From IMG/VR virus record IMGVR_UViG_3300030329_002480, positions 1-54,502 of that record: 54,502 nucleotides of DNA. One strand, 5' to 3'. This document shows, one piece after another, positions 859 to 46,645 of the stretch. The notes beneath the pieces were generated by a model. That model did no database searches and had not been told where the DNA came from. It saw only the letters and a program-made list of their open reading frames with translations. The first letter of the stretch is position 1; each line of letters opens with the position of its first letter. The DNA is from a virus. The translations under genes were made by a program, and so were the position numbers.

Positions 859-1695
859 ATGAAACACCTGATCGATCCGGGCCCATCCCGCAAAGGATGG
901 CACCGGCTAGCTAAAGTGCTGCGTTGTCCTAGACTATATGCTCTGTCTTATTTGGTAGAGCATCGGACCTCCGACGAGCCTCCGGCTGAGCCCCTGATGA
1001 AGGGCTCTCTGATGCACATCGGGCTCGCGCACCATTACGCACAGAAGTCTGACCTGTTTGAAAACGAGGACATCTACTCACCGCAGGAAGCTATCGAAGT
1101 CTTAGCCCAGCAACAACCCGCTGGGCACCGCGCGGCATGGCAACGTCATGTCCCAGAGATACAGAGAACGCTAGCTGATTATCAGATTCATTGGTCAGGT
1201 GAGCAATGGAAGACTATTGCGATTGAGCATGAGCTTCTTGTCAACGTGTTTGATGAGGAGCGCAACAAGTCGTACCTGTACACACAACGTGTGGATGCCG
1301 TATGGGAACACCCCATGACGGGCAAGATTTACTTTGTAGACCACAAGACCGCCGGTCGGTTTACCTCGCGCACCCTTGGGGGCTACAGTATGAACGGACA
1401 GTTTCTTGGCTATCAGATGATAGGCGAGAGAATGTACAAGGACCGATGGGGAGGCGTACTGCTAAACGTCATCGAGTGGGGGAAAGGAGGGGGCTCTCCA
1501 ACATTTCAACAGATGCCCATCAACCCGGCACCGCACTCCGTCGTGCAGTTCCCGAATGCCATCATTAGAGCAGAGAGGACTATTCAAGACTATGAGAAAA
1601 CTCAGCCAGCAAAGTGGCCAGCAACGCATCAGGAATCGGCGTGCTGGGCATATCGTCAATGTCGATTCTATCAAACATGTCAGTGGGGGAAGTAG
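859..1695 (+). CDS. Cas4/RecB-like PD-(D/E)XK nuclease with iron-sulfur cysteines
   Basis: The 278-residue protein shows the layout of Cas4-type exonucleases: LRCPRLY with Cys23 near the N-terminus, GSLMHIGLAHH (about 49-59), an aspartate in RVDAV (146), the catalytic VDHKTA (D161, K163) and a Q-x3-Y helix (GQFLGYQ). It ends in a cysteine triplet C262-x5-C268-x5-C274. Together with Cys23 this gives the four cysteines that bind a 4Fe-4S cluster in Cas4 and AddB. The family resects DNA ends. The next genes are a RecA-like ATPase and a single-strand-binding-type protein, so a phage recombination module is inferred. No cas1 or cas2 is nearby, so this is not a CRISPR adaptation gene. Confidence 0.88.
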   Translation: MKHLIDPGPSRKGWHRLAKVLRCPRLYALSYLVEHRTSDEPPAEPLMKGSLMHIGLAHHYAQKSDLFENEDIYSPQEAIEVLAQQQPAGHRAAWQRHVPEIQRTLADYQIHWSGEQWKTIAIEHELLVNVFDEERNKSYLYTQRVDAVWEHPMTGKIYFVDHKTAGRFTSRTLGGYSMNGQFLGYQMIGERMYKDRWGGVLLNVIEWGKGGGSPTFQQMPINPAPHSVVQFPNAIIRAERTIQDYEKTQPAKWPATHQESACWAYRQCRFYQTCQWGK

Positions 1696-1698
1696 AAA

Positions 1699-2589
1699 AT
1701 GAATCTGTTTATTATCCTTTATGGTCCTGCCAAGACCGGCAAGACCTTATCCGCAATCGCATCTTGGCCTGATGCACTCGTCGTTGGGCCGGTGGGGGGT
1801 ACTCTCTCCAGTCGGTTCTTAAACCACGAGCCCAAGTTTATTCCGGTGGGAGACCAAATCACCGTGAAGCAGATTGGTGAGATTATCCAGAAGGCGCAGG
1901 ATGAATACCCGTGCATCATTATTGATGACTTTAGTATCATCTGTTCTTCTGAGCTCATGCTCTGTCAACAGTCCTTTAGGGGGTGGGATGCCAACAAGGA
2001 GTTCAATAGGCGCATCCGTGTGCTTAGGGACATCATCCGTAATGCTAACTGCCACGTCGTTCTTACGATGCATGAGCAAGCCCCTAAGGTCGTTGGCCAA
2101 GAGGGTGAGCAGAGGAAGCTACCGGGATGCCCTATGATTCCGGGGTGGCAACTACCAGAGCAGTTCCCGACACACGCCGACCTCGTAGCCAGAGTTATCT
2201 ACGATGAGGACGCACCGGGGAGTTGGCCTTACCTGTATCAGACTGGACCAGACGAGATTTACACTACAGGTGACCGTCTTGCCATCACACCCGAGAAGTT
2301 TCCCATGAATATCCGAGAGGCTCTCCTACTTGCGGGCATCGACGTCCCGCGCCCTGAGCCCTTGGCCTTTATGGAAGATTATATCCCGGTTATCGTCGAT
2401 GCGATCTCCGAGGAGATGGCCACCAAACGACCTTCACTTAAGAAGGTCTTCACACCGTTTGCCGAAAAAATGATAGAGGAGGGGATTGACACTCGGCACA
2501 TCCGCTGGATATTCAACGACGCTCTCCATAGAGAGCACTTGACCCGGCACAACAACAACCTGATTACTAACTTCATTAATACACTCTGA
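1699..2589 (+). CDS. Sak4-like RecA-fold ATPase (recombinase/annealing factor)
   Basis: The 296-residue protein opens with a P-loop GPAKTGKT (residues 9-16). A hydrophobic strand ending in two aspartates (CIIIDDFS, about residues 73-80) acts as Walker B, and VVLTMHEQAP resembles the sensor segment of AAA_24/Sak4-type phage ATPases. Sak4 proteins bind single-stranded DNA and promote strand annealing with a partner SSB, and such a partner is the next gene. A good ribosome-binding site (GGGGGAAG) precedes the ATG. The C-terminal 100 residues are not recognised. It could instead be a generic nucleoside-triphosphate-binding AAA_24 protein. Confidence 0.75.
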   Translation: MNLFIILYGPAKTGKTLSAIASWPDALVVGPVGGTLSSRFLNHEPKFIPVGDQITVKQIGEIIQKAQDEYPCIIIDDFSIICSSELMLCQQSFRGWDANKEFNRRIRVLRDIIRNANCHVVLTMHEQAPKVVGQEGEQRKLPGCPMIPGWQLPEQFPTHADLVARVIYDEDAPGSWPYLYQTGPDEIYTTGDRLAITPEKFPMNIREALLLAGIDVPRPEPLAFMEDYIPVIVDAISEEMATKRPSLKKVFTPFAEKMIEEGIDTRHIRWIFNDALHREHLTRHNNNLITNFINTL

Positions 2590-2596
2590 GGAACAC

Positions 2597-3109
2597 ATGT
2601 TCAACTTTGACTTTACTTCTACTAGCATCAACCAGTCCCCAAGTAAGTCGGGTGTCTTCCCTGTGAAGATCACCGGCATCGAGGGCTACACGTCCAAAAG
2701 CGGCAATGCCCGCATTCGTATCCGCGCCGCAGTCTCTGAAGGCGAGTGCGAGGGATGCACCATCGTCGATGGCATCAACCTGCCCACCGAGGAGAACTCC
2801 AAGGTTAAAGGCATTTGGCTTCGGTTCTTCGCGTCTCTCGGCCTGACTCCGTCCGACGTGAAAGAGTCTTTCAGCAAAGACTACAAGAACCTTGACGATG
2901 CCGTTAAGCACATCAGTAAGGTGCTGATGGACCTCAAGGGCTACTGCTACTACGCGCCTGCCGTAGGAGAGGGAACATACCCTACGAAGAAGTGGCTCAC
3001 CTCAGCGCAAGCTGAAGGTGCGCGTGAGTCTTCCTCCGCTGGAACTGCCGCTAGTGGCAGCACAAACGCTGCGTCTGACGCTCTGAAGGACTTCATCAAC
3101 GTCCGTTGA
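2597..3109 (+). CDS. Probable single-stranded DNA-binding protein (OB-fold, DUF669-like)
   Basis: The 170-residue protein has an N-terminal beta-rich domain with alternating strands (GVFPVKITGIEGY, ARIRIRAAVSEG) typical of phage SSB-like proteins. A low-complexity Ser/Ala/Gly tail follows at about residues 137-160, and the C-terminus is ALKDFINVR. Bacterial SSB tails normally end in an acidic tip, which is not obvious here. Position right after the Sak4-like ATPase and Cas4-like nuclease supports a partner role in recombination and replication. The assignment rests on context and general composition rather than a diagnostic motif. A strong terminator follows immediately. Confidence 0.6.
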   Translation: MFNFDFTSTSINQSPSKSGVFPVKITGIEGYTSKSGNARIRIRAAVSEGECEGCTIVDGINLPTEENSKVKGIWLRFFASLGLTPSDVKESFSKDYKNLDDAVKHISKVLMDLKGYCYYAPAVGEGTYPTKKWLTSAQAEGARESSSAGTAASGSTNAASDALKDFINVR

Positions 3110-3165: not shown

Positions 3166-3360
3166 ATGAACTGTTGGCATTGTAAGACTGAACTAATCTG
3201 GGGTGGCGACCACGACGCGGAAGAGGATACCGAGGTCTTCACTATGGTCACCAACCTATCGTGCCCAAAGTGCAACTCACTTGTGTTGGTGTACTCTGGC
3301 GTAAAGGAGAATCTACCACCCGCCCGTATCGAACTAGGTGGGGATAACGATGGCGTTTGA
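3166..3360 (+). CDS. Small zinc-ribbon protein, 64 aa
   Basis: The ATG at 3166 is chosen because an upstream in-frame TTG would place the start inside the terminator hairpin. The protein carries two cysteine knuckles, CWHC near residue 3 and CPKC near residue 34, that would bind one zinc. The remainder is acidic. Its last 11 bases overlap the start of the DNA polymerase gene at 3350, suggesting coupled translation. Function is unknown; similar ribbons in replication operons can be transcription or replication accessory factors. Confidence 0.75.
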   Translation: MNCWHCKTELIWGGDHDAEEDTEVFTMVTNLSCPKCNSLVLVYSGVKENLPPARIELGGDNDGV

Positions 3361-5821
3361 TAAAGCCAAGTGTGAGCAGTGCCCACTTAAAAAGCACTGG
3401 CAAAAGAAGAAGTGCTGGAGCCCCGTAGACTTCGAGCAGAGAGCGTCGGGGGACGGAGGCATACTCATCCTAGGGGAAGGACCGACAAAGACCGACATGA
3501 GCCTTGGGAGGCCATTCTCGGATATGTACGGGGCCGACCTACTAGATGCACTAAAGACCCTAGGGCTACGTCGAGAGGACGTGTCGTGGGGGCACGTTAT
3601 CGGATGCCGTTGGCCAAACGATGACCCAAAGACATACATTGCAAGGCTTCGCGCGTTGAACCGACGTCGAGCAAAGAAGTGGGGGAAGGGGCCTTTGCTT
3701 TCCCCCATCGAGGCGTGTCGTCAGCATACAGAGCACCATATGCAAAAGAGCGAAGCCATCCTCTCCTTGGGCTCGCTTGCGACCAAGGCAGTCTTTGGTA
3801 ACAACGTGAAGCTCGATGGTGTTCGTGGCGCACCTTCCTTTGTAGGGAAGACCAAGGTCGTACCATCGTACACACCGCAAGTTGTGAGGAAGAACCCTAG
3901 GTTTCGGGATGTGTTTCTTAGAGACTTGGCCAAGATGCTACGTCACTACAACGATGAGCTCCAATGGAAAGACCCAGAGGTTATCTACAATCCGACTTAT
4001 GAAGTAGCTAAGGAGTTCTTTGCGTCCGTCAAAGAGCAGGGCGACATACTGGTGTACGACGTTGAGACCGATGGTATCGACGCCCTGAGTACTGACCTGC
4101 GTTGCGTGGGTATCGGAACAAAAGACCGCGCACTCGTTATCGGATTTGTTAGCATCGACGGTGTCAGTCGCTTCTACTCTAAGGAAGACGAAGCACAGAT
4201 GAAGGACCTGTTGCGAGAGGTCTTTACCGACGAGACCTTCTTGAAGGGCGGACATAACGCTGGATACTTTGACCGGCTGGTTATCGAGCAACACCTAGGG
4301 GTCACGCCCCGTCCGCTGGTGGATAGCATACTTCTCCATAAGCTAGCGGCATCCGAACACCGACACAACCTAGGGTTCATCGGCTCGTATGAGCTCGACC
4401 TACCCGCGTGGAAGGCAGACCATACAGGGGTGGAGGCTAAGACCGACGAGGAGTTGCATGCGTACTGCGCGACGGACGTAGCGGTCACCGGACGTATCAT
4501 GCTCCCTGTTCGCCATCAGGCAGAGATGAGGCAACAACTCCACCTCTACTCCTTTGATGAGAAGATTCAGAACATCTGCGCGGGCATGCGTAGGATGGGC
4601 ATGAGGATTGACGAGGGTCGTCGGCTCGCGCACGAACAGGAGCAAGCCGAGTTGGTGGCACGACACCGCAAGGTGATGGAGAAGATGCACCCAGAGGTAC
4701 ATCCCAACTCGACTGCCCAGCTCAGGGAACTTCTCTTTACCGAGTGGGGGCTCCCCCCCTCTTCGTTTACACCTACGGGGGAGATCTCCGTTAACGCCGA
4801 TGCCTTACGTACACTCGCCACATCCCCCCTGCTTAGCGACAAACAACGTAAGTACGTGAAGTCTCTCCGCTTCTACCGCAGAGGGGAAAAGCTCCTGTCT
4901 ACTTACTTGCGTAAGTTAGCCCCCGGTGCTGGGCTGGTCCGTGACGGGTACGTCTACCCCAACTGGAACTCCCACGGCACTGTTACCGGTCGGTTGTCTA
5001 GCTCTGGGCCCAACTTCCAGAACATCCCTTACGCTCTGCGAGACATGTTTATCCCCCCGGAAGGGTGCGTGTTTGTTGGTGCTGACTATGACCAGTTAGA
5101 GCTTCGATACTGCTCTGGTCTGGCAGGCGCGGCACACTACCTCGATGCGTTTGAGAAACAGCTTATTGACCCACACAACCTGACCGGAGACCTCATGTTT
5201 GGGGAGAAGTTCTGGCAGGTGGAAGGAGCCCCGGAGACTAAGATGGGCAAGGGCACGGGGCAGTTTAAGCGGATGCGAAACCTCGCCAAAGCTATCTGCT
5301 TCGCTAGTCTCTACGGTGCGAGCGCACCCAAGATTCATGAGCTCGTGACCAGCACCGAGGACAATGATGGGAACCTCATCTACGCCCATTACACCCTCCA
5401 GCAAATCCGCGTCCTGCATCGCAGGTGGAAGCGGCAAGCACCGGAGTTCGCGAGGTGGTGGGCTAAGACGTTAAGATTTTGTAAAGAGAACGGGTATGTG
5501 GCGGAGTCGGTGTTAGGCAGGCGTCGTTATTTCCACAAGGAGGACTACAACGCTGTACTCAACTTCCCGGTGCAAGCCGGGGCGTTCAACGTGGTGGCGT
5601 TGTCGATGATTGATTTGGTAGAGAACCACCTGCCGTTCGACTTCAAGAACAAGATTGGCTTAGTGAATCAGCTTCATGATGCCGTCTTGTTCAGCGTACC
5701 GGTGGCGCAAGCCGAGGACGTAAAACAACTTGTTACTGAAACACTCACGAGACGGGTGGATGGTCTGCCCGTCACATTTACCGCAGAAGCAGAGATTGCA
5801 GAATCTTGGAGGGAAGCATGA
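3350..5821 (+). CDS. Family A DNA polymerase with N-terminal UDG-like iron-sulfur domain
   Basis: The gene encodes 823 residues from the ATG at 3350; a GTG 12 nt upstream is less likely. Residues 1-200 resemble family 4 uracil-DNA glycosylases: CEQCPL (C8, C11), GEGPTKTD (43-50), GRPF (53-56), an IGC (C86) and EAC (C123) giving the four cluster cysteines, and a YTP (174-176) where the family has a His-Pro. A 3'-5' exonuclease domain follows, with DVET (237-240), a GHNAGYFD segment and YCATD. The polymerase domain has motif A DYDQLELR (from D579), motif B with K647, F651 and YG (655-656), and motif C reading HDA (776-778) instead of the usual HDE. This is the replicative polymerase of the phage. 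Confidence 0.95.
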   Translation: MAFDKAKCEQCPLKKHWQKKKCWSPVDFEQRASGDGGILILGEGPTKTDMSLGRPFSDMYGADLLDALKTLGLRREDVSWGHVIGCRWPNDDPKTYIARLRALNRRRAKKWGKGPLLSPIEACRQHTEHHMQKSEAILSLGSLATKAVFGNNVKLDGVRGAPSFVGKTKVVPSYTPQVVRKNPRFRDVFLRDLAKMLRHYNDELQWKDPEVIYNPTYEVAKEFFASVKEQGDILVYDVETDGIDALSTDLRCVGIGTKDRALVIGFVSIDGVSRFYSKEDEAQMKDLLREVFTDETFLKGGHNAGYFDRLVIEQHLGVTPRPLVDSILLHKLAASEHRHNLGFIGSYELDLPAWKADHTGVEAKTDEELHAYCATDVAVTGRIMLPVRHQAEMRQQLHLYSFDEKIQNICAGMRRMGMRIDEGRRLAHEQEQAELVARHRKVMEKMHPEVHPNSTAQLRELLFTEWGLPPSSFTPTGEISVNADALRTLATSPLLSDKQRKYVKSLRFYRRGEKLLSTYLRKLAPGAGLVRDGYVYPNWNSHGTVTGRLSSSGPNFQNIPYALRDMFIPPEGCVFVGADYDQLELRYCSGLAGAAHYLDAFEKQLIDPHNLTGDLMFGEKFWQVEGAPETKMGKGTGQFKRMRNLAKAICFASLYGASAPKIHELVTSTEDNDGNLIYAHYTLQQIRVLHRRWKRQAPEFARWWAKTLRFCKENGYVAESVLGRRRYFHKEDYNAVLNFPVQAGAFNVVALSMIDLVENHLPFDFKNKIGLVNQLHDAVLFSVPVAQAEDVKQLVTETLTRRVDGLPVTFTAEAEIAESWREA

Positions 5822-10746: not shown

Positions 10747-11049
10747 TTACGGAGCTATGTCAACCGTTTCTGCGGCATTTGCTTGTGCCATACTGTCAGC
10801 CATGACAAGCATAGCGTTGTTGCCCAGCAGCCCGCCTAGTACCGTGAGGATCATAATCAGGGTTTGAGGGTGCTTTAGGGCCGACGAGATACTCCATAGT
10901 GAGCGTTGTCCCATTTCATCGAGGCGTTCCTCGATGCGTCCAAGCGCACTAACTGTGTACTTTTGTTCCGTCTGGATGACCGCTACCGTTTCCCGTATTC
11001 CGCCAACCTGCTCTTCAAGATTGGTTACTCGCTGTTCAAGCCCCGACAT
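10747..11049 (-). CDS. Coiled-coil membrane protein, candidate holin (100 aa)
   Basis: Residues 1-48 form a heptad-like coiled coil (LEQRVTNLEEQVGGIRE and onward). One hydrophobic segment follows at about residues 62-83 (TLIMILTVLGGLLGNNAMLVM), then a short acidic tail. This layout matches XhlA-type haemolysin/holin-associated proteins. The lysin candidate is on the other strand at 6774-7322. The gene starts directly at the end of the giant internal protein gene. It could alternatively be a virion membrane-interacting protein. Confidence 0.6.
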   Translation of the reverse strand: MSGLEQRVTNLEEQVGGIRETVAVIQTEQKYTVSALGRIEERLDEMGQRSLWSISSALKHPQTLIMILTVLGGLLGNNAMLVMADSMAQANAAETVDIAP

Positions 11050-14000
11050 CAGTCCTCCGTAGGTACGATCGGGGTCTTCGCCTGACGCTCCAGATCGTTC
11101 TCCAGTCTCTTCAATCTATCACTAACATCATCCTCTTTCCAATAACGCTCACTATCCCCATTGTAAAACAATACCTTGCCGGTATTGAGCAATGCGCCGA
11201 GAGCCTCCAGACGAGCCCGCGCTGGGCCCGAGTCTACGGCAAGAGCGCGGATCTCACTGGGTGCCATGCCGGGGAATGCGAGGCTAAGCATAAGGCGGAA
11301 ACGATGATATTCGGTTTTAGGAATCTTGGCGATCGCGGCACCGACCGGTCCCGCCGGATAGCGGATTCGCTTTGTCCGTGTGTCCTGTGGGTCTTGTGTC
11401 AGAACCGCGAGATCTGGCGCACCAAGCATCCCAAGGAGCTCTACAAACTCCATGTCCCCGTTCCGCATCCTGAGCCCGTATTCGGATGCGGGGACGTCAC
11501 TGACACCCACTAGCTCTTGGAAGAAGTCTTCAAACACGTCCGAGTATACGGGAGCTAGGAACTGGTCGATTGTTGAATCAATCAAAGACTCAAACGCTTT
11601 CTCCGGGTTCGAGGATAGTGGAATAACCTTCCCTTCTGGGTCCACAATGTTCCCTCCCGCAACGGCAAGGGCTGAGAGACTGGCTGCGATGTCAAGCATC
11701 CCAAGCATGTACTCGGTTGTGGTGGCTTTCGGAAAAATGCGGGCAAAGTGTGTTCGGACATAGCCCCCTTTTGCCATCTCCGTGACTGCGTTTTCTGGCA
11801 TTTCACCTAGAGCAAGAAGGGGATACTCCTCAAGGTACTTAGGCATCTCCCGCATCGACGCATACTTGGCTTGCTCTTCTTCGGTCAGCTCAGTGTACGG
11901 GTCCGTCATCGCTGCGGGGTACTGGGTCATGAGCCGACTAACTACCTCAAACCGTTGTAACTGAGTCGCGCCCCTAGCATAGCGGCTCATGTACTCCTTT
12001 ACGCCGACGTCGGAGGCCTCAAAGAACATCCGAAACACCTGCGCCATAGCGTTCTTCGAGAGTGTGTAGAACAGGACGTAACGGCCAATAAAGGACATCT
12101 CATGCTTTCCAACTGAATGCGACCAGTCGTACAGTGTATTCGACAACTCCCGGAAGGCCTCCTGCTCCGTCAGCCCCCGGTTGATGCGGGCGTCGGCGTA
12201 CATGAGAAGGCGCTGACGACGAGTAACTTCACGGATTTTCATCTCCATGATGTTCTGCATGTAGCCGAGATCTTGACCTGCACGCGAAAGGGCTCCGAAG
12301 ACACCCGGATTTTTCTGGCGTTCAACCATAAGGGTGCGCCGAATCGCAGCGGAGAAGTCTTGGATGCGGATGTTCTCCCCGATTCCTGCGCCAATCGCTT
12401 CGGCGTAAAACTCGGCGTAAGTCATTTTGGTGCCGTCTTTAAGTGTCAGCACATCCTCACTGGCCGTTAAGATTTTATCCAACGCACCGTTAAACATCGC
12501 AGAAAAAGCTGTAGGGAGCCCCTCTTTGCCGGGGGGTAGCTGTGCGATCGTCCTAAAGTAGGCGTTCTGTAGCGCCTTTCCGTACACAGGGACGTAAGCG
12601 AGTGAGCCCATGAAGGTCAGATTCGCGGCCCTAGCTGGTCCCACGGTGATCCACATCTGGGAAAAGTCACCAAACAACTGGTTCATAAAGTACGCAGGTC
12701 GCGGGATAACGAGCCCGGTGAGGATGTGTGTCTTGAACCACCGAAGAAACTTCTCGTACAGCCTTAGACCACTGGAGTGCAGCATTGTGGATGCCGCGTC
12801 CTCACTGATCGCTTCGTCGAGTTCTTTCTGAATCTTGGTAAGGCTCTCGTTGAGATCGTTCAAGATGCTCTGAGGCACCATCAACACGTTGCCCTTTGAA
12901 TCGACCGATGCGGCAACCATGCGTTGGTACGCAGTACGGGTAGCATGTAGCTCATCCGTCTGGCCTTTCCGGCCAATGCTGGTCAAGCTACCCGTCCCCC
13001 AGATACTAAATCCGTCCAGTGCATCCAGAAGAGACAACCGGATATCGCGATGAAGCACCTCGTCAAGAGGGACCACAAGAAGCTCGCCCTTTTGTCCCCC
13101 CGCTGGGCTGGACAAGTAGACGACGTTCGCCTTCTTATCGATCTTATTGATGCGGTACGCCGACTTTCCGAGCGCATCCATACCTAAGTCTTCCAGCTTC
13201 GGCAAACGCACAAACGGCTTACCTGCACCGCGTCCCGCAGCAGGGACTGCGCCTGCTTGAGGATAAGGTGTTTGTCGGAGTTTAGCGACATCAGGGAAAG
13301 GACCGGCTCGACTAACGCTAGGTAGTTTTGTGAGGTCTACATGCGGTCCCAACAACAACGCGGCCTGATGCTCCGCGACATAGCTAAGCATGTTCTTGAC
13401 CTCATCATTGATTCCCGGAATCAGTTGCTTGAAGAAGTCCATCTGCTCGAACCACAGGGGTGTCTGCCTACTTTCATACCGGATCAAGCTTAAGAACTTC
13501 TGAACATCCGGGTTCTCAAAAGGCACCGTGTGGATTTCCGCAAAGCCCTCCCGATTCAGTACTTGGTCCCAAAAGCCACGGTTGAAGATATACGAGACAC
13601 GATTAGCCATTCGCCGCGCTCTAGCGGGATCCATACCTAGCTTTTTGGTTAGCTCCTCCCCCCGCTTGAGAAGAGTCGAGTTACCCATATGAATGTAGGG
13701 ACGAAGCAGTTCCTTCATCTCAAGCTGATGTGCTTTTGCTTTTTCCACGATGGCCATAGATGCCGCATCACCAGTTTCTAAGGCACGAGCTCTATTGGTC
13801 ACCACGTTGTGCAGTGCCTCATGAATGATGATCTGCGCGTTAAAATAGCGGGGGTCAAAGTTCATGTGGTCTGGGCCCGAGTGGGCGTTGTTGTACCTCC
13901 GCTGGAAGTAGATGGGGTTTGTGTCGGAGGCGTAAGGGACAAGGGCTTCGGCCATTCGCCGGTAGTTCTCCCCGCGCGCGTTTTGTGAGAGCCATTGTAA

Positions 14001-17000
14001 GATGTCACGGGTGCTATACAGCATGTCGCCCGCCACGGGTTTCTTCATGGTAATGGGGTTCAGGAAACCGTCACTGTGACTGTCTTTGACTGTAGAAAAC
14101 TCAAGCGTCGGGGTGACCTCACGCAAAAACTCCTCACGTAGTTCTCGTGCTGTTCTCTCCTCGAAGCCCTTGCCTTCTGCTCTCTTTGCATACTGTGTGG
14201 CAACCACGCTTCGTTGTCCCGGCAAAGTAAGCTTTTTGATTCTCCCGTCTTTTTCTTCGATGCGAAGACGCTCTGTGAGTTGATTAAACAACTCCGCGTC
14301 TTTTCGCAGCATCACGTAGTCACCCACCATGAAGTCTACTTTGGCAAAGTTGTCGGTCGCCTCGGCTCCTTCACCCATCAAAAAGTTCATGGCCCGAGCC
14401 ATACGTGGATTAAACCTAGGGCCAATGATGTTTGCGACCTTATCAAAGAAATCCGCCTGCATCGCGCCTAACACAATCCCTTTGTAGAACTTGGTCATGC
14501 CACCTGCGGTGGTCAAACTAGACAAGTCCAGCGTCACGGGCTTTTCTTTTACCCCTAAGATTGCGGAGCGAATCACATTCTCGAAGCCCGCGAGGAGTGC
14601 GTCTCCGGGAGCGGACAGGTCCATCTTTGCGACCCCGTCGTACACCCGACGAACAAGTTTGTCGTACTGTCCTCCCGGCTCGTAGAACTTGTCGCGGTTT
14701 GCCAGTGTGGACTCATCAATAAACGCTTGAATAGCCGCCGAAAGACCGGGGTTTTCGATAAGCTTGTCGCTGGGAGCCGCCATGTCCCGTGTTTTCCGCA
14801 TGCTTGTCACTTGCCGAAGGAACGTAGCAATCAAGGACTCAGAACGGCCAACGATGCCCGTTAGTGTTAATGTTGCTTTCTCGGTGCCCCACACACGATA
14901 CCGTGACGCTACTTCTTGGATGCCCCCTGCTGAGGTCAACATGCCACGCACTAAAGCGTTCGCCTCGTCAAGATCGTCTACATTTGCCAAGATGATGTTA
15001 AAGGAATCTAGTAGATCTTGGACCCTGCGTGCGATGACCTTTGCTGCATCATCTACGTCCCGTCGCACCACCGACTCCAGAAGACGCACATTTGTAGAGA
15101 AGAGAGGAACTTTCTCCATGACGCGCCCGATCGCTAGCGTGCCCCACACAATCAGCGCACGCGGCTGACGGAATAGGCCGGGAATGCCATCCTCAAGTCG
15201 GAGCCCGAGTTGGATCATGCTGAGAGGGTCTTTGAAGACCTTAATCAGGGCGCTTGTTGTATAGATGTCGTCCACATGGCTAGGAGCGAGGGCTTCTGCT
15301 AGTTCGTCCCCAAACATGCGCTGGTCATGTACGTCATACTTGAATGCAGCGCGGGCTCTTCCCTCAACCGCATCCATCATCTTCTTAAACACCGCAGGCT
15401 TAAGCCCCGTGACTGCTGCCGCTCCCTTTGCGAGTCCCCGCATAGCTTGTAAGTACTCGTTGTACTCGTTCACGACAAACGCATCAATCCGCTCCGGTGA
15501 CATCGCATCTAATGCTTCGGTGCGTTCTTTAAGATTGCGCGTCTCACTGTTGAGCGCGCTCAGTTGGTTGGCTACATCATCGAGCGCAACGATGTTTGCG
15601 TCATACCTTTTTTGTAAGGCCTCTACGAGAGCGGGTGATCTCCTACTTCGTACCGCAGCGTCGAGTTTCGCGTACTCTCCCGTCTCAAGATTTAGCTCTT
15701 GGAAGAGTTTCGTGAGGAGATCTTCAATCTGGCCGAGAGCCCGGAGGGACTGGCCTTTGACGTTCTCGTAGAGATTTTCTGTGGCCCCACTAAACATCTG
15801 GTTCAGTTCTGCCCTAGTCGCCTTAGTCTCTACCTTTTGGAGCAACTCAAGGATTCGATCGGAAATCAACGCATGCACTTGCCGCGCTCGCGCCTTTATG
15901 TCTGCATCGTCCTTGCGTCCCCTAAGTTTGACTCCTTTCAGGAGTCCGTGGGCTTCTGCGACACTCTCCATGTCTTTTTTCCCGCGTAGTGCGGCGAATG
16001 CGTCGGAGATAAAAGCAGAGGCGTCTGGATCAACGTAGCGTTGTGCGTACTCCGCAAACTTTTGGCGCATCTTAGTGCTTCTTGCAAAAGTAACGACTGC
16101 ATCGTTGACCTGCTTTTCAGCGTTGATTGCCAGTTCTGCGGCGCGGATCTCATACTGAATAGCAGACAACTTAAGATCCGCCTTGCGAGCCATATCCGAC
16201 GCTTGCTCTGCCGCTGCTCTCTGCTTGTTTGCCTTCTCCAAAAGCTTTTTACTTTCTACCTTAAGAGAAGTGTACATCTCCATAGAACGACGCACCGCAG
16301 TCGATCTCATGTTCGCTGCAAGCCCGTGGTCCATCAGCTTGCCTGCGCTAGCCAGTAGGCTGTATGCCGCTACCCCGCCTGTTTTGTCTTGTCGTGCCGC
16401 TTTGTTGATAAAGCTGTCAACGTCTTTAATCTCGTCGGGGGAGGTGACTTGGCCTTTGCCTCCCGTAGCTTGCTGGATAATCCGCTCAAGGGCCACACCG
16501 CTGCGCCCAATATTAGTTTGGGAGGTCAGGCCAGTAACATGCGCCAGTTTTTGTCCGCCTACTTTACCCCCCACAGCTCCGGCTGCGACAGCAGTGAAGA
16601 TATCGGGACTCGCAATGAAGGTTGCAAGGGCCGCGATAGAGCCCACTGCGGTCCCTAGGCGCGGATTCTCTCTGCCGTATGTCCCCAAAAAAGGGTTGAT
16701 AAAGGCGTCACCAAACTCTGTTAGGAAGCGTCCCCCTGCGATGTCGTCTTTGATGGTGTAGGCAAGATGCTTTTCGGTGCCCACGTTAGCCAGCATGTTC
16801 CTGACGATACGTCCGGGTCGGCCCGAATCCATCTCATTACCAGATCTAGCCTCTTCGTCTACAGCAAGAGCAAACGACCGCACCAAGGGCTCGTCCACAG
16901 AAAAGCGTAGGATGTAGTCCAGCATATTTGTTGCTTTAGACTCGCCTAACAAAGGCACAAAGAAGTCGCCTTCGCGGACAAAGTCGAGCTCCTCGCCCCC

Positions 17001-18380
17001 CTCGGTTACGATTCCCGCAGTTCGGCGTGGCAACGTAACAGCGATAAGCGCCTTAGCTATCCGATCAGGCAAGTTATCGAGGATCTTCTCTTTCTGGCCC
17101 AAAGTAAAAGCTGTGTTGAGTGCCGACGCAACCTTGAAGATTTCCGCGCGGGTGCCTTTGCCCTCCGTAAAATCACGGAGTGCGCCTTCTGGGTCAACAT
17201 GAACCACTAAAGAGTCTCGATCCATCAACGAGTTAATCATGGTCCGAGTGCGGTTGCGACTACGCTCCCGAAGGTCTTCCTTCTGCTGTTCTGACAACTC
17301 GCTTGTCTTAAGCCCGAGCTTCTTCCTCTCCTGATGAAACAACAGGTTCTCAATACCTTTCTGGAGTTCTTCGCGATTAATGCCGTACCTGTTGTCCCTA
17401 GTTGTGGACACTGGAATGTATACGTCCGAAGGCCTCGCTTTCGCGCGACTGAAAAAGGCATTCTGCTTAATCATGTTGGCGTCTTCGGTGTTGCCCATGG
17501 CGGCGAGCAAGTCTTCGTCGCTCTGCCCTACCCGAAAGCCCTCGGCATACATGCGGAACAGATCTTTCGACGTTTTGTCCGAGTACAACAGGCGAATCAG
17601 GTTGTTTGATGTCGCCTCGACCATAGACTTATCGAATGCATCGTTAAATCGGGGGACACCCACAACTCTCTGTCCGTTAACCACTGCGTGATGAATCGCG
17701 CTGGGACGCTGTGTTGTGATCTTTTTCTGGAGCAGGCCCATAGCTTCGTTTTCAAGATCTTCTTGCTGCTTTGCGGCTGCGCTAAAGTTGTCGTACAGGT
17801 CTCTTGGAGACTCAAACTGTCGGGCCAAGTTCTCCATCGACCAGATATTCAAAATATTAGCCGCGTTGCGGTCGATATGATTGGGAATATCAGGGTTAAA
17901 AAGTGGGTTACTCGGATCATAAGCCACTTGGGCTCGCGCGTCTGCGATTAGTTTATCGAGTAGCTGCTGCTGGTTCTCCTCGTTGTTGGGTAGCCCTTGG
18001 GCTTTGAGGATGCGCCCTAGTCGGGTAACTCGATCTTTAAGAAGGGTGTTCCCAAAACCAAGCTGAAAGAGGCCGCGCTCTTCGCGCAACTTCTCTTGGT
18101 ACGCTTTGCGTTGGCTCTCCGTGGGCAGTGCGGCGCGGATCTCGTCTAATCTCTTGGCGTCTTGGTCCACCGAAGGTGGCTTCGTGACATCCGCACGACG
18201 CGGCAGGCCCATCTTCTCCGCAATCTGCTTACGCTTTACAGCGTAGGCGCGATGGATGGGCCTCAGGTGCAGGGGAAGCTGCTCTTCGGTAACACCAAAA
18301 AAATGCTCTTCTGGGTCGGGGGACTCAAACTTTATTTCGTCCACCGCCGCATCAGGCGTCTTAGTAGTCTTGTCCGCCAC
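11049..18380 (-). CDS. Giant internal virion protein, 2443 aa, with zinc-metallopeptidase-like motif
   Basis: This is by far the longest gene, about 13% of the genome. It starts with GTG at 18380, overlaps the upstream gene by 20 nt, and has GGGAGA upstream. The N-terminal half is charged and helical, with a small Ala/Gly-rich hydrophobic stretch near residues 575-610 and long helical arrays near 690-1000. An HEALH motif at 1520-1524, in a hydrophobic helix, matches the HExxH zinc site of metallopeptidases. A conserved-looking region with PRPAYFMNQLFGDFSQMW lies near residue 1900. Position as third in a run of internal proteins parallels T7 gp16, which enters the cell and forms the ejection channel. 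No lysozyme or RNA polymerase motif was found. Confidence 0.88.
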   Translation of the reverse strand: MADKTTKTPDAAVDEIKFESPDPEEHFFGVTEEQLPLHLRPIHRAYAVKRKQIAEKMGLPRRADVTKPPSVDQDAKRLDEIRAALPTESQRKAYQEKLREERGLFQLGFGNTLLKDRVTRLGRILKAQGLPNNEENQQQLLDKLIADARAQVAYDPSNPLFNPDIPNHIDRNAANILNIWSMENLARQFESPRDLYDNFSAAAKQQEDLENEAMGLLQKKITTQRPSAIHHAVVNGQRVVGVPRFNDAFDKSMVEATSNNLIRLLYSDKTSKDLFRMYAEGFRVGQSDEDLLAAMGNTEDANMIKQNAFFSRAKARPSDVYIPVSTTRDNRYGINREELQKGIENLLFHQERKKLGLKTSELSEQQKEDLRERSRNRTRTMINSLMDRDSLVVHVDPEGALRDFTEGKGTRAEIFKVASALNTAFTLGQKEKILDNLPDRIAKALIAVTLPRRTAGIVTEGGEELDFVREGDFFVPLLGESKATNMLDYILRFSVDEPLVRSFALAVDEEARSGNEMDSGRPGRIVRNMLANVGTEKHLAYTIKDDIAGGRFLTEFGDAFINPFLGTYGRENPRLGTAVGSIAALATFIASPDIFTAVAAGAVGGKVGGQKLAHVTGLTSQTNIGRSGVALERIIQQATGGKGQVTSPDEIKDVDSFINKAARQDKTGGVAAYSLLASAGKLMDHGLAANMRSTAVRRSMEMYTSLKVESKKLLEKANKQRAAAEQASDMARKADLKLSAIQYEIRAAELAINAEKQVNDAVVTFARSTKMRQKFAEYAQRYVDPDASAFISDAFAALRGKKDMESVAEAHGLLKGVKLRGRKDDADIKARARQVHALISDRILELLQKVETKATRAELNQMFSGATENLYENVKGQSLRALGQIEDLLTKLFQELNLETGEYAKLDAAVRSRRSPALVEALQKRYDANIVALDDVANQLSALNSETRNLKERTEALDAMSPERIDAFVVNEYNEYLQAMRGLAKGAAAVTGLKPAVFKKMMDAVEGRARAAFKYDVHDQRMFGDELAEALAPSHVDDIYTTSALIKVFKDPLSMIQLGLRLEDGIPGLFRQPRALIVWGTLAIGRVMEKVPLFSTNVRLLESVVRRDVDDAAKVIARRVQDLLDSFNIILANVDDLDEANALVRGMLTSAGGIQEVASRYRVWGTEKATLTLTGIVGRSESLIATFLRQVTSMRKTRDMAAPSDKLIENPGLSAAIQAFIDESTLANRDKFYEPGGQYDKLVRRVYDGVAKMDLSAPGDALLAGFENVIRSAILGVKEKPVTLDLSSLTTAGGMTKFYKGIVLGAMQADFFDKVANIIGPRFNPRMARAMNFLMGEGAEATDNFAKVDFMVGDYVMLRKDAELFNQLTERLRIEEKDGRIKKLTLPGQRSVVATQYAKRAEGKGFEERTARELREEFLREVTPTLEFSTVKDSHSDGFLNPITMKKPVAGDMLYSTRDILQWLSQNARGENYRRMAEALVPYASDTNPIYFQRRYNNAHSGPDHMNFDPRYFNAQIIIHEALHNVVTNRARALETGDAASMAIVEKAKAHQLEMKELLRPYIHMGNSTLLKRGEELTKKLGMDPARARRMANRVSYIFNRGFWDQVLNREGFAEIHTVPFENPDVQKFLSLIRYESRQTPLWFEQMDFFKQLIPGINDEVKNMLSYVAEHQAALLLGPHVDLTKLPSVSRAGPFPDVAKLRQTPYPQAGAVPAAGRGAGKPFVRLPKLEDLGMDALGKSAYRINKIDKKANVVYLSSPAGGQKGELLVVPLDEVLHRDIRLSLLDALDGFSIWGTGSLTSIGRKGQTDELHATRTAYQRMVAASVDSKGNVLMVPQSILNDLNESLTKIQKELDEAISEDAASTMLHSSGLRLYEKFLRWFKTHILTGLVIPRPAYFMNQLFGDFSQMWITVGPARAANLTFMGSLAYVPVYGKALQNAYFRTIAQLPPGKEGLPTAFSAMFNGALDKILTASEDVLTLKDGTKMTYAEFYAEAIGAGIGENIRIQDFSAAIRRTLMVERQKNPGVFGALSRAGQDLGYMQNIMEMKIREVTRRQRLLMYADARINRGLTEQEAFRELSNTLYDWSHSVGKHEMSFIGRYVLFYTLSKNAMAQVFRMFFEASDVGVKEYMSRYARGATQLQRFEVVSRLMTQYPAAMTDPYTELTEEEQAKYASMREMPKYLEEYPLLALGEMPENAVTEMAKGGYVRTHFARIFPKATTTEYMLGMLDIAASLSALAVAGGNIVDPEGKVIPLSSNPEKAFESLIDSTIDQFLAPVYSDVFEDFFQELVGVSDVPASEYGLRMRNGDMEFVELLGMLGAPDLAVLTQDPQDTRTKRIRYPAGPVGAAIAKIPKTEYHRFRLMLSLAFPGMAPSEIRALAVDSGPARARLEALGALLNTGKVLFYNGDSERYWKEDDVSDRLKRLENDLERQAKTPIVPTED

Positions 18381-40761: not shown

Positions 40762-41521
40762 GAGGTTCCTCGGTGCGATAAAGTCTACAGCCCTTTGTAA
40801 GTCTCATACGCTTTGGAGAGCCATAAATCAAGTAAGAAAGGTAAGGTGGTGAGCCAGTGAGCCGCTTTGCAAGGTCGGCATCCGCGTAAAAAGGGTTGGA
40901 CTGAAGTGCTGCCAGAAACCGCATGCGCTTCCTCATAGGTACGTCCGTGAGAAACGGAGGATAAACACAGCGTCGGAAATCGGTCCCAGAGGCCCAGAGA
41001 ATATATTCTGGGATGTCCTGTAGGCCTTCGATGCCCAAGTACATAGTTCGGAGAATCGAGCTCTCTGGGAGCCTGTAGCCTTCTGCTATCTGAGGCACGG
41101 TCAGCCCCATGCAGTACAGCAACACCATAAGGAACGCACACATCTGCCGGTCGTTGCGAGCGTAACGGCTTGACATATCGACGTTTGCAATGTCGTGAGG
41201 TGTAGGGATGAGCCGATACTTAAAGGCGGGATAGATTTCTCTAGGCCACTCTGTAGGGGACCGTAAGCAGGCCTCAGACCTTGCCCAGTTGTTAAGCAAA
41301 GGGGTTTTTCTCACCCAATCATAGACACCTGAGTTTGGTCCTGAGGTGGTCTCGAACGTCCACGAGAAGCTTTTCTTGCGGATGTACATGATTGTCGAAA
41401 GGAACGGGTTCCACGATTTGGTTGTCGTCAAATATGGGGTGTAGAGCGTCCTAAGAGCCAGCACATGCGGGCTCTTATTCCGGTCCTTTACCCTAGGTAG
41501 CCTCTGCGTGGGTTCACGCAT
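40733..41521 (-). CDS. Hypothetical helix-turn-helix protein, 262 aa
   Basis: The ATG at 41521 is preferred over an in-frame TTG two codons upstream. It overlaps the primase-helicase stop by 8 nt. A segment MGLTVPQIAEGYRLPESSILRTMYLGIEGL near residues 135-165 has the spacing of a sigma-region-4-like or response-regulator helix-turn-helix. A second LAKRLTGSPPYLSYLIYG near residue 220 is similar. The N-terminal 100 residues are basic and aromatic (SFSWTFETTSG). It may be a transcription factor for late genes or a DNA-binding packaging factor. No family recognised. Confidence 0.6.
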   Translation of the reverse strand: MREPTQRLPRVKDRNKSPHVLALRTLYTPYLTTTKSWNPFLSTIMYIRKKSFSWTFETTSGPNSGVYDWVRKTPLLNNWARSEACLRSPTEWPREIYPAFKYRLIPTPHDIANVDMSSRYARNDRQMCAFLMVLLYCMGLTVPQIAEGYRLPESSILRTMYLGIEGLQDIPEYILWASGTDFRRCVYPPFLTDVPMRKRMRFLAALQSNPFYADADLAKRLTGSPPYLSYLIYGSPKRMRLTKGCRLYRTEEPHVTKKQIEQ

Positions 41522-43991
41522 CCGCAATCCTTAGACTCATAAATCCGGGCTTCTGGGCCCGCTCAACGCGAAGTCCGATACCCACCCATGCGCGGATAAC
41601 CTTGCCCCCGACACGTACAGAGCGTGTCTCGAAGTCCCGCTCCTTCAACTGACGGTTGAATAGCCGGTAGTTCTGTGGCTTTTGGCGCAGGTCTTCGCAC
41701 CAATCCGCGTAAGCAAGGTAGATATCCTTCTGTGATACAGAGTGTTGGGGGCCAATCAGGCAATGTTCGCCCATAAACTCGGCCAACACGTCCATCTCTT
41801 CCCGATACTCGTCCGTTGCTAGCGTCACCACCGCAGGTGGGCGCAGACCGTCACGCTGCCACTCCAAGCAACCCTCGACTAGGCGACGAAGAATGCCGGG
41901 AGCCTCCTCTTTTAGCTTATCAAGAAAGAATGGGTCTTTCTTATCGGCGGGAATACGGCGGTTCCACGGGATACGCATGACTCGCCGCCAGATACCTTCG
42001 TCGTTACCCTTGATGATAGGACGATGGTTGGCTGCGATGCAGAGTTTGTGCGTTGGCATGAACTCATAGAAGTCCTGACGCATCTTCCGGGCACGAATGG
42101 GGTCACTACCGGTGAGCTGCTTGATAAGCGACTCAGCAAACGGCTTGCCTTTCTCGACCTCGGCGTTTGCCACGAACCTCGCACCCTGCAAGTCGGCCAC
42201 CTCGGTAGGATGCGACTCATTCTTGCGAGCAAGCAGCAATCCGGGTGCTCCTTGGATAGCGTAGTCACCTAGGACATGCATGATCATGAGAAGCGCGGTG
42301 GTCTTACCATTGCTGCCGGTTCCCTCCATGAAGAGCAGCACTTGTTCTGTGACCAAACCGGTAAGGCAATAGCCAAAATAGCGGTGGATGAATGAGATCA
42401 CCTCCTCGTCCCCATGCATAGCAAAATCAAGAAAACTGTCCCATGTCGGGCATTTAGCAGTTGGATCGTAGACAATCGGGCTGTGCTTCGTCATGTAATC
42501 TGTACGATCGTGTCCTTGGAGCTGACCTGTCCGAAGGTTGATAGTGCCGTTTGCAACATTCAAAAGCCAAGGGTCTGCATCCATCCTGTCAGCCTTGATG
42601 GCAACCTCTGCCTCGGTGGACGCCAAGCTAATCATAGAGTTAATAGCTCGTGAGCTTTCACTACGGAGGGCATGTCGGCGCAGAGCACTGCGCTGTTTTT
42701 TATTCGCAGATGCGGCAGCTTCATCGAAGATAGAGGCAACTACCATTTTCGCTTTGCGATGGACCCCACCATCTAGATCTCTCTCCCAATGGGAGTCAGT
42801 GTACGTGTACCAAGACCCATGCGTTGGGCAATAAAGGAGTTCATTTTGAAAAAGTCTTATCAACCGCTTCGCGTTCCCCAAGTCCGTCAAGTTAGGCGAA
42901 TCCGCCGTAGACGCGGCCAAGGGCTGACGGCTAGAGCTTGGATTAAATGGATCGTCCGCGAGCTCTTGGAGCTTCTGCCATCCGATGTGCTTCCCATCCT
43001 CGTCCTTCTGCTTCCCTTCGCAGTTCTCGTGGAGGCATCCCGCTGCAATCCCGCCATCGTTGAACTGGAGGATATACGCACTCCTGTCCGTGTGTTCTGA
43101 GTTCCACGGACAAATATCAAATACCCAGCGGCGTCCTTTGCCTTGCCATGGTATAGGGTCGCCCAGATCTGGGAAGTTCTTTTTGATCCACTTCTCAAGA
43201 TCGTCGAAGACGTCTGAGGCGAGAGAAATAAGTTTTTTCTTGTCCTCCTCTTCCTCCTTAGAACCATCCGATATGATGCCCGTAAGCTGCTGCATTGAAA
43301 CGGGTACCAGATCTTCAGGCACCTTGAGGAGCTTGGCTGGCCTCCACGGCCTTTCTTTCCCCCCGTGTCCCTTTCTTGGCAAAGTACCGTACACCTTCCA
43401 GATGCGGGACGGGTTGAATACGAGGCGGTCTACCTCTGCTCCGTCGGTGCTGAACTTATCAGACAATGCTTCGAGGCAAAGGCGGATTGTCGTAGGGTCA
43501 GCCTCCTCAACTCGGTACATCATGTGGTAGCCGTTACCTGAATCACCGAAGATGGGGTCAGGCCAGCCTTGTTCCTTCAGATGGTCGTACACTGCGTCAC
43601 ATACGTTCTTGGCTTCCACCTTTTCCAGCGCAGTTGCCGACTTACCGGAGGGGCGCTTGGGATCAATGTCCACGAGCAGCCACCGAATCTCCTCGATGTC
43701 CTTGTCCTTAGTAGATTTACCTCTAGCACCCAGCGTTAGCGTGTGCAGATGGGGAGTTGCCTTCCCCGGACGCACGGGATTGGGGGTAAAGTAGACACCC
43801 TTGGCCCCTTGGTCCGATAATGTGGCCGCAGCCTCAGCTAAGATGCGGACATCGTTAAAGAATCCGCTATATGTGCGACGAATCCCGTCTTGGCCCGGAA
43901 CACTCAGGGCTCGAAGCTCTACATACTGACCTTCCTCCAAGATTTGCCGGAATGCCTTCTCAATCTCCTCGATACAGGCTTTGCTTGCCAT
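41514..43991 (-). CDS. Primase-helicase (AEP primase + D5/SF3 helicase), 825 aa
   Basis: The N-terminal 230 residues have archaeo-eukaryotic primase features: WLLVDIDPKRP (aspartates at 108 and 110), GNGYHMMYRV and NPSRIWKVYGTLPRKG. A cysteine/histidine pair region (CPWNSEH then CLHENCEG, about 295-330) may be a zinc site. A D5-type linker and an SF3 helicase domain follow, with Walker A GTGSNGKT (557-564), a motif B region ARFVANAEVEKG and a motif C-like LCIAANHRP (about 645). The protein would prime and unwind DNA at the origin, and the repeat array at 44247-44584 lies just upstream. It works beside the rightward DNA polymerase. Confidence 0.92.
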   Translation of the reverse strand: MASKACIEEIEKAFRQILEEGQYVELRALSVPGQDGIRRTYSGFFNDVRILAEAAATLSDQGAKGVYFTPNPVRPGKATPHLHTLTLGARGKSTKDKDIEEIRWLLVDIDPKRPSGKSATALEKVEAKNVCDAVYDHLKEQGWPDPIFGDSGNGYHMMYRVEEADPTTIRLCLEALSDKFSTDGAEVDRLVFNPSRIWKVYGTLPRKGHGGKERPWRPAKLLKVPEDLVPVSMQQLTGIISDGSKEEEEDKKKLISLASDVFDDLEKWIKKNFPDLGDPIPWQGKGRRWVFDICPWNSEHTDRSAYILQFNDGGIAAGCLHENCEGKQKDEDGKHIGWQKLQELADDPFNPSSSRQPLAASTADSPNLTDLGNAKRLIRLFQNELLYCPTHGSWYTYTDSHWERDLDGGVHRKAKMVVASIFDEAAASANKKQRSALRRHALRSESSRAINSMISLASTEAEVAIKADRMDADPWLLNVANGTINLRTGQLQGHDRTDYMTKHSPIVYDPTAKCPTWDSFLDFAMHGDEEVISFIHRYFGYCLTGLVTEQVLLFMEGTGSNGKTTALLMIMHVLGDYAIQGAPGLLLARKNESHPTEVADLQGARFVANAEVEKGKPFAESLIKQLTGSDPIRARKMRQDFYEFMPTHKLCIAANHRPIIKGNDEGIWRRVMRIPWNRRIPADKKDPFFLDKLKEEAPGILRRLVEGCLEWQRDGLRPPAVVTLATDEYREEMDVLAEFMGEHCLIGPQHSVSQKDIYLAYADWCEDLRQKPQNYRLFNRQLKERDFETRSVRVGGKVIRAWVGIGLRVERAQKPGFMSLRIADA

Positions 43992-45982: not shown

Positions 45983-46645
45983 TTACCGGTTATAGTCAAC
46001 ATCATACCACGCTTCGCCATCTTCCGAGTTTAAGGCATCCCATAGCGTTACCTTATCGCGTGGGTAGAGCGCCTCATACATACGAACCATATCAGAGGCA
46101 AGTCGGCGTAACGCGGTATGGTCCTTAGTAAGAACCTGTAACAAAGCACGCTTTTCCCGCATGTAGATAGGCGCAAAGTTTCTATCGTGTTCAATGATGC
46201 TGCGGGAGTTGTCAATCATATCGGCAGACTTAATCATATGCGCCTGCCACCCTCCCTTACTTATATGGTGTCGGTCCATAGCTTTACGCCACGCCCGGTT
46301 ACCATCCTCCGGCTTACTAACGTCGGTGAGCTCGGCCACAATACGTGCGATGTTAGGACCGAACGTATTGTTTATATCCTCGTTAGATACTGAAGTATCC
46401 TCTACTACGTCGTGTAGTAAAGCGGCGCAGAGACTTTCCACGTCATGTACACCAAACTCCCTTAGGAGCCTGTATACATTAAGCGGGTGAGAGATGTACG
46501 GTATCCCTGTATACTTACGTACTTGGCCTTTATGTGCGCCTCTCGCATACTGAAACGCTGAGGCAACAAGCTTACGCTCCTCATCTATCATGGAGTGGAC
46601 GTCGTTTAACGTCAGGGTAACATCGCATGGTTCGTACTTAGGCAT
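45983..46645 (-). CDS. HD-domain (p)ppGpp hydrolase-like protein, 220 aa
   Basis: The 220-residue protein has the hydrolase half of RelA/SpoT enzymes and no synthetase. Residues match the known active site order: HKGQVRK (Arg43 in the RKYTG segment), SHP (His53), LLHDVVED (His78, Asp79, Glu82, Asp83), and a KSADMIDN segment (Asp141, Asn146). Such stand-alone hydrolases (Mesh1-like) remove pyrophosphate from ppGpp or cleave related nucleotides with manganese. A phage enzyme of this kind could block the host stringent response or nucleotide-signal defence. It overlaps the upstream gene by 8 nt. Confidence 0.82.
   Translation of the reverse strand: MPKYEPCDVTLTLNDVHSMIDEERKLVASAFQYARGAHKGQVRKYTGIPYISHPLNVYRLLREFGVHDVESLCAALLHDVVEDTSVSNEDINNTFGPNIARIVAELTDVSKPEDGNRAWRKAMDRHHISKGGWQAHMIKSADMIDNSRSIIEHDRNFAPIYMREKRALLQVLTKDHTALRRLASDMVRMYEALYPRDKVTLWDALNSEDGEAWYDVDYNR

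Follow-up and report, generated by a model that had tools for sequence, protein, structure and literature searches.

It has been observed for years that some phage polymerases carry uracil-DNA glycosylase (UDG) domains. UDG-PolA fusions, in which an N-terminal UDG-like domain, a 3'-5' exonuclease and a family A DNA polymerase lie in one chain, occur in SPO1 (gp31) and Shbh1 (PMC5135824) and in the DNA polymerase I of PaBG (PMC7412058), as the earlier note recognised when it described such domains as known. The same arrangement is found in PHROG 17, which the architecture analysed here matches, and in 9qhs, the family A polymerase of phage phiLo solved with a modified template. For the SPO1-type domain, a role in processivity has been put forward (PMC5135824), and the literature searched yielded no test of the role of UDG domains on phage polymerases. 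The UDG-PolA architecture of the polymerase described below is thus not new in phages; what is new, judging from the sequences compared, is a clade that combines retained cysteines, a changing pocket and a Lys/Arg-rich insert.

A family 4 UDG-type domain on a phage replicase

The window, that is, the whole stretch of 54,502 bases analysed here, is IMG/VR virus record IMGVR_UViG_3300030329_002480. The sequence probably represents a genome that is circular or terminally redundant and imperfect at one end, since its first bases (at least 40) recur about 99 bases before its right end; an exact terminal repeat of the whole window end was not seen. Host assignment was attempted by a conserved-peptide scan of genome contigs, which returned no relative, and by comparing window positions 1-25000 with a phage collection, which returned no DNA match.

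A single plus-strand ORF (3350..5821), annotated with Pfam, encodes an 823-residue family A DNA polymerase that joins a UDG-like domain, a 3'-5' exonuclease and a polymerase, the fusion of the SPO1/PaBG type. The ORF has two possible starts, GTG at 3338 and ATG at 3350, and its stop lies at 5821; because relatives of the window polymerase begin at the ATG with the pattern M[AS]F[DE]KAKC, residue numbering from 3350 is the right one. The exonuclease domain occupies approximately residues 215-400 (3992..4549, +; Pfam DNA_pol_A_exo1 at 220-383) with its catalytic residues intact, and D237, E239, D308, Y372 and D376 are invariant among 15 relatives. The polymerase domain follows at approximately residues 430-823 (4637..5818, +; Pfam DNA_pol_A at 432-822) with motifs A, B and C intact. 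When 15 polymerases were compared over 740 residues, none of the exonuclease and polymerase catalytic residues examined varied among the sequences that cover it. The DNA_pol_A match is near the Pfam family's own length, so no large thumb insert is evident, which does not prove its absence. When a full-length model was used in a fold search, matches to Klenow-type and other polymerases spanned residues 206-823 only.

Directly upstream lies a small CxxC..CxxC (zinc-ribbon-like) ORF (3166-3360, +) that overlaps the polymerase start by 11 bases, and further replication genes for a PD-(D/E)XK nuclease, a Sak4-like AAA ATPase and an SSB-like protein are found nearby (859..3109, +). In three other loci (L005, L007 and L010), a nuclease and an ATPase gene come after the UDG-PolA gene. 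The window proteins that were scanned with Pfam included no recognisable sliding clamp, which is no proof that one is absent. Elsewhere, the window encodes an HD-domain (HD_4) protein (45983-46645, -) and a DUF932 protein (50226-51266, +), each in a region of small ORFs; an ARAGORN tRNA-Ala prediction (12498-12585, +) lies antisense within a 2443-residue ORF (11049-18380) and is probably a false positive.

Residues 1-200 (3350..3949, +), which the earlier note had read as UDG-like, are a real family 4 UDG-type domain rather than a chance resemblance. Pfam PF03167 (UDG) matches residues 37-193, with an E-value of 1.5e-9 for the full protein and 8e-11 for the domain alone, and the corresponding scores of 38.5 and 42.6 bits exceed the family's gathering score of 24.3. 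The NCBIfam model TIGR00758 (UDG_fam4) gave 9e-15, although its 54.8 bits fall below the cut-off of 125.3. The extension also matched solved family 4 enzymes. A domain profile built from 15 viral sequences matched Thermotoga TM0511 at 7e-32 with the four cysteines of each aligned, and an hhalign comparison with those viral family 4 domains whose motifs are intact gave 3e-24, placing T175 opposite their His. An AlphaFold2 model of the domain, made from the same viral alignment (pLDDT 80.9, pTM 0.79), has as its best structural match the Sulfolobus family 4 UDG 4zbx (Z 19.3, rmsd 3.1 over 159 residues, spanning residues 10-203). The top matches 4zbx, 1ui1 and 1vk2, at Z 18.8-19.3, place the model in the family 4 alpha/beta UDG fold, and the ranking runs from family 4 UDGs to UdgX and then to 9qhs. 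The structural comparison and the profile search thus both bear out the proposed homology, and the motifs named beforehand (C8, C11, C86, C123, GEGP at 42-45, GRPF at 53-56 and YTP at 174-176) are all present.

Compared with the family 4 enzymes (UDGa: Thermus 1ui0, TM0511 and 4zbx), the window domain has the same fold, the four cysteines, GEGP and GRPF. Unlike them, it is fused to a polymerase, four residues of motifs 3 and 2 (Asn, His, Lys and Arg) are replaced, and the interval between C86 and C123 is longer.

Cysteines, pocket and insert across the clade

Conserved-peptide scans of viral contigs recovered about 30 loci of the window's own clade, from which 20 non-redundant domains, all from uncultivated viruses, were kept. 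In family 4 enzymes the four cysteines are the ligands of a [4Fe-4S] cluster. Their counterparts here are C8 and C11, which form a C-x2-C pair (3371..3382, +) aligned with KCTAC of TM0511, C86 (3605..3607, +) and C123 (3716..3718, +), and by this alignment we infer that they hold such a cluster in the window protein. C11, C86 and C123 are each retained in 20 of the 20 clade domains and C8 in all 19 in which it is covered, while synonymous codon variation occurs within the clade at all four positions, C86 included. Since scan patterns A1 and A6 contain C8 and/or C11, and C86 and C123 are absent from the patterns, only the retention of the latter two is unbiased.

The uracil pocket is altered in several places. 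Motif A reads GEGP (3473..3484, +), and the Gly that comes next in family 4 is T46 here. The uracil-reading Asn of motif 3 (TNxxKC) is replaced by H82 (3593..3595, +) and the Lys of this motif by G85; motif B, HPxxxxR in family 4, reads T175-P176 with K181 in place of the Arg, so that T175 (codon ACA, 3872..3874, +) occupies the position of the catalytic His. The Asn and His positions are those given by the alignment with TM0511. The pocket residues E43 and F56 are still present. The two most telling replacements fall on residues whose counterparts in UdgX, N91 and H178, contact uracil (PMC10359453), and the N91A and H178A mutants are inactive (PMC10776899). Loss of the motif B His by itself does not prove inactivity, because MUG/TDG-type enzymes of the UDG superfamily work without it (motif MPSSSAR) (PMC10359453). 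Taken with the replaced Asn, motif A Gly, motif 3 Lys and motif B Arg, however, it makes it very likely from the motifs that the window domain does not excise uracil. The earlier claim of a His-to-Thr change therefore holds, but it understated the loss, which extends to H82, T46, G85 and K181; its picture of a probably non-excising domain that keeps its predicted iron-sulfur ligands is supported by the replaced motif residues and the cysteines aligned with TM0511.

Neither pocket column is fixed in the clade. The Asn position is Tyr in eight domains, Asn in six, His in four and Thr in two, so that 14 of the 20 have Y, H or T there; the His position is His in 12, Ala in four, Thr in two and Ser in one, with one domain not covered; and 12 of the 20 have W, L or H at the F56 position. 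Asn, His and Phe are kept together only in three members (L050, L053 and L054). A special meaning for the His-to-Thr change, which had been raised, finds no support here: Thr is only one of several substitutes, and the occurrence of Ala, Thr and Ser at this position points to loss of constraint and speaks against Thr having acquired a specific new role. A tree of the polymerase made without the UDG domain requires four or more state changes in the Asn column and likewise in the His column. By contrast, the Asn never varies in 29 viral domains whose ORF has no detected polymerase, a set that leaves out the split Kuura gene. This column is free of search bias, whereas scan pattern A4 contains the HP motif, so that His conservation in the comparison sets arises by construction.

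Other phage fusions differ from the window clade in these features. Many keep both Asn and His, unlike the window protein, and relative to the SPO1/PaBG-type fusions the clade is set apart by its four kept cysteines, altered pocket and Lys/Arg-rich insert. SPO1 gp31 (L016:42242-45901) shows the reverse pattern, lacking all four cysteines and having Ser at the Asn position with His-Pro kept. Serratia/Pseudomonas-type fusions (L006, L007, L010, L151 and L153) have Pro at the Asn position and keep His-Pro, and the fusion of Pseudomonas phage SM1 (L012:4001-6907) keeps the cysteines but has neither the Asn nor the His-Pro motif. In Caulobacter phage Kuura (L015:1968-5372), the UDG-like and exonuclease-like part is separate from the polymerase gene, a split architecture.

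The interval between C86 and C123 is 36 residues long in the window protein (3608..3715, +) and 35-36 residues in 20 of 20 clade domains, compared with 15 residues in all but one of 30 polymerase-free sequences and 15-20 in the majority of other fusions. The clade thus has about 20 extra Lys/Arg-rich residues here, and in all 20 domains the interval lacks His and contains 8-11 Lys/Arg. In the HMM alignment, the additional stretch lies opposite the R-loop region of UdgX, and residues 93-111 are predicted to be helical in the AlphaFold2 model; from its composition and position, the insert would contact DNA. The window domain accordingly resembles Mycobacterium smegmatis UdgX in its family 4-like fold and in having a basic insertion that aligns at the corresponding position. 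Its motifs are otherwise not those of UdgX, with GEGPT in place of GEQPG, TPQ in place of HPS in motif B, and no equivalent of the R-loop KRRIH with its cross-linking His. We rejected UdgX-type cross-linking because none of the 20 clade domains has a His in the insert; the cross-linking residue H109 has no counterpart in the window domain, and the motif B His is gone as well.

The domain has nevertheless been maintained. Pairwise dN/dS values are 0.035-0.14 for the UDG domain and 0.016-0.13 for the rest of the protein; the ratios are rough for those pairs whose synonymous divergence exceeds 1. The domain is under strong purifying selection also where Asn and His are both gone, as in the trio L020/L021/L048 with His for Asn and Ala for His. 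Such selection means that the domain serves some function, and to judge from the changing pocket this is probably not the canonical reaction.

Possible roles of the domain on the replicase

The reading we favour, with roughly an even chance, is that the domain is a non-catalytic, iron-sulfur-stabilised module that holds DNA on the replicase. According to this proposal, the N-terminal domain would derive from a family 4 (iron-sulfur) UDG that lost uracil excision and was kept beside an intact proofreading exonuclease and polymerase. Its four cysteines would hold a [4Fe-4S] cluster that stabilises it, and the Lys/Arg-rich insert together with the old glycosylase face would grip DNA and so keep the polymerase on its template, through processivity or template tethering, as the poxvirus UDG D4 may illustrate. 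The family 4 fold and sequence, the retention of the cysteines while the pocket changes, the purifying selection and the insert all speak for this proposal; the persistence of E43 and F56, and of Asn, His and Phe in the three members named above, speaks against it. The absence of the cysteines from SPO1 implies that some polymerases of this kind do without a cluster.

D4 offers a functional analogue, being a UDG-fold protein in a viral replicase holoenzyme that, with A20, forms the vaccinia processivity factor (PMC5682278). It differs in being a separate polypeptide bound via A20 to the family B polymerase E9, whereas the window domain is fused to a family A enzyme, and the window domain model gives only a weak fold match to it (Foldseek E 5e-3). 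The window phage also encodes a D5_N-family primase-helicase (41514-43991, -); its occurrence together with a replicase that bears a UDG is reminiscent of vaccinia D5 and D4.

We offer a wider formulation only tentatively: within a phage replicase lineage, a repair-enzyme domain with several active-site changes under purifying selection would have become a non-catalytic iron-sulfur module that binds DNA and acts either as a built-in processivity element or as a cluster-dependent control element. That the domain is instead a purely structural cap, which would stabilise the polymerase, fold it or bind a different replisome protein while making no contact with DNA, seems to us unlikely. Its sequence diverges faster than the rest and yet retains purifying selection and invariant cysteines, as a cap might, but the conserved basic insert at the UdgX R-loop position hints at contact with nucleic acid.

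The earlier suggestion that the domain senses or binds uracil fares less well and is improbable. Such a read-ahead sensor would bind template uracil or another unusual base without cutting it and stall the polymerase. Archaeal family B polymerases stall at template uracil through a different pocket. The partly kept pocket (E43 and F56) and the modified template in the related 9qhs structure are compatible with sensing, but the window protein has H82 in place of the uracil-reading Asn, and the Asn and His columns both vary in the clade, as does the F56 position. Nor did the window proteins that were scanned include any recognisable uracil or base-modification gene. We consider uracil sensing less likely than a non-excising DNA-holding module. 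Thymidylate synthase, dCMP deaminase and thymidylate kinase genes adjoin the polymerase in L007 and L010, suggesting modified-thymine DNA there. A link between the window and hypermodified DNA was rejected: dCMP deaminase and thymidylate synthase genes adjoin fusions in Serratia and Pseudomonas phages, but none was recognised in the Pfam-scanned window proteins.

It is quite improbable, too, that the domain is an active glycosylase whose altered pocket removes another base by changed chemistry. Other families of the UDG superfamily do use different motif residues (PMC10359453), and strong purifying selection would fit an enzyme, but close relatives show several pocket combinations with no single new pattern fixed, and motif A of the window protein has Glu rather than the Asn of GINPG enzymes. 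A functionless, decaying vestige is scarcely credible: the canonical catalytic residues are replaced and the domain diverges faster (39-59% identity to the window, against 60-76% for exonuclease plus polymerase), but its dN/dS differs little from the value for the remainder of the protein, C86 and C123 are invariant, and the selection result disfavours it.

The clade naturally separates two possible roles, in that the glycosylase pocket changes while the predicted iron-sulfur ligands and the domain itself are held by selection. Through it, the question of whether such a domain is a repair enzyme or a polymerase accessory becomes directly testable, and its members, with Asn and His both kept, one lost or both lost, form a natural series for studying what an iron-sulfur domain may contribute to a family A replicase.
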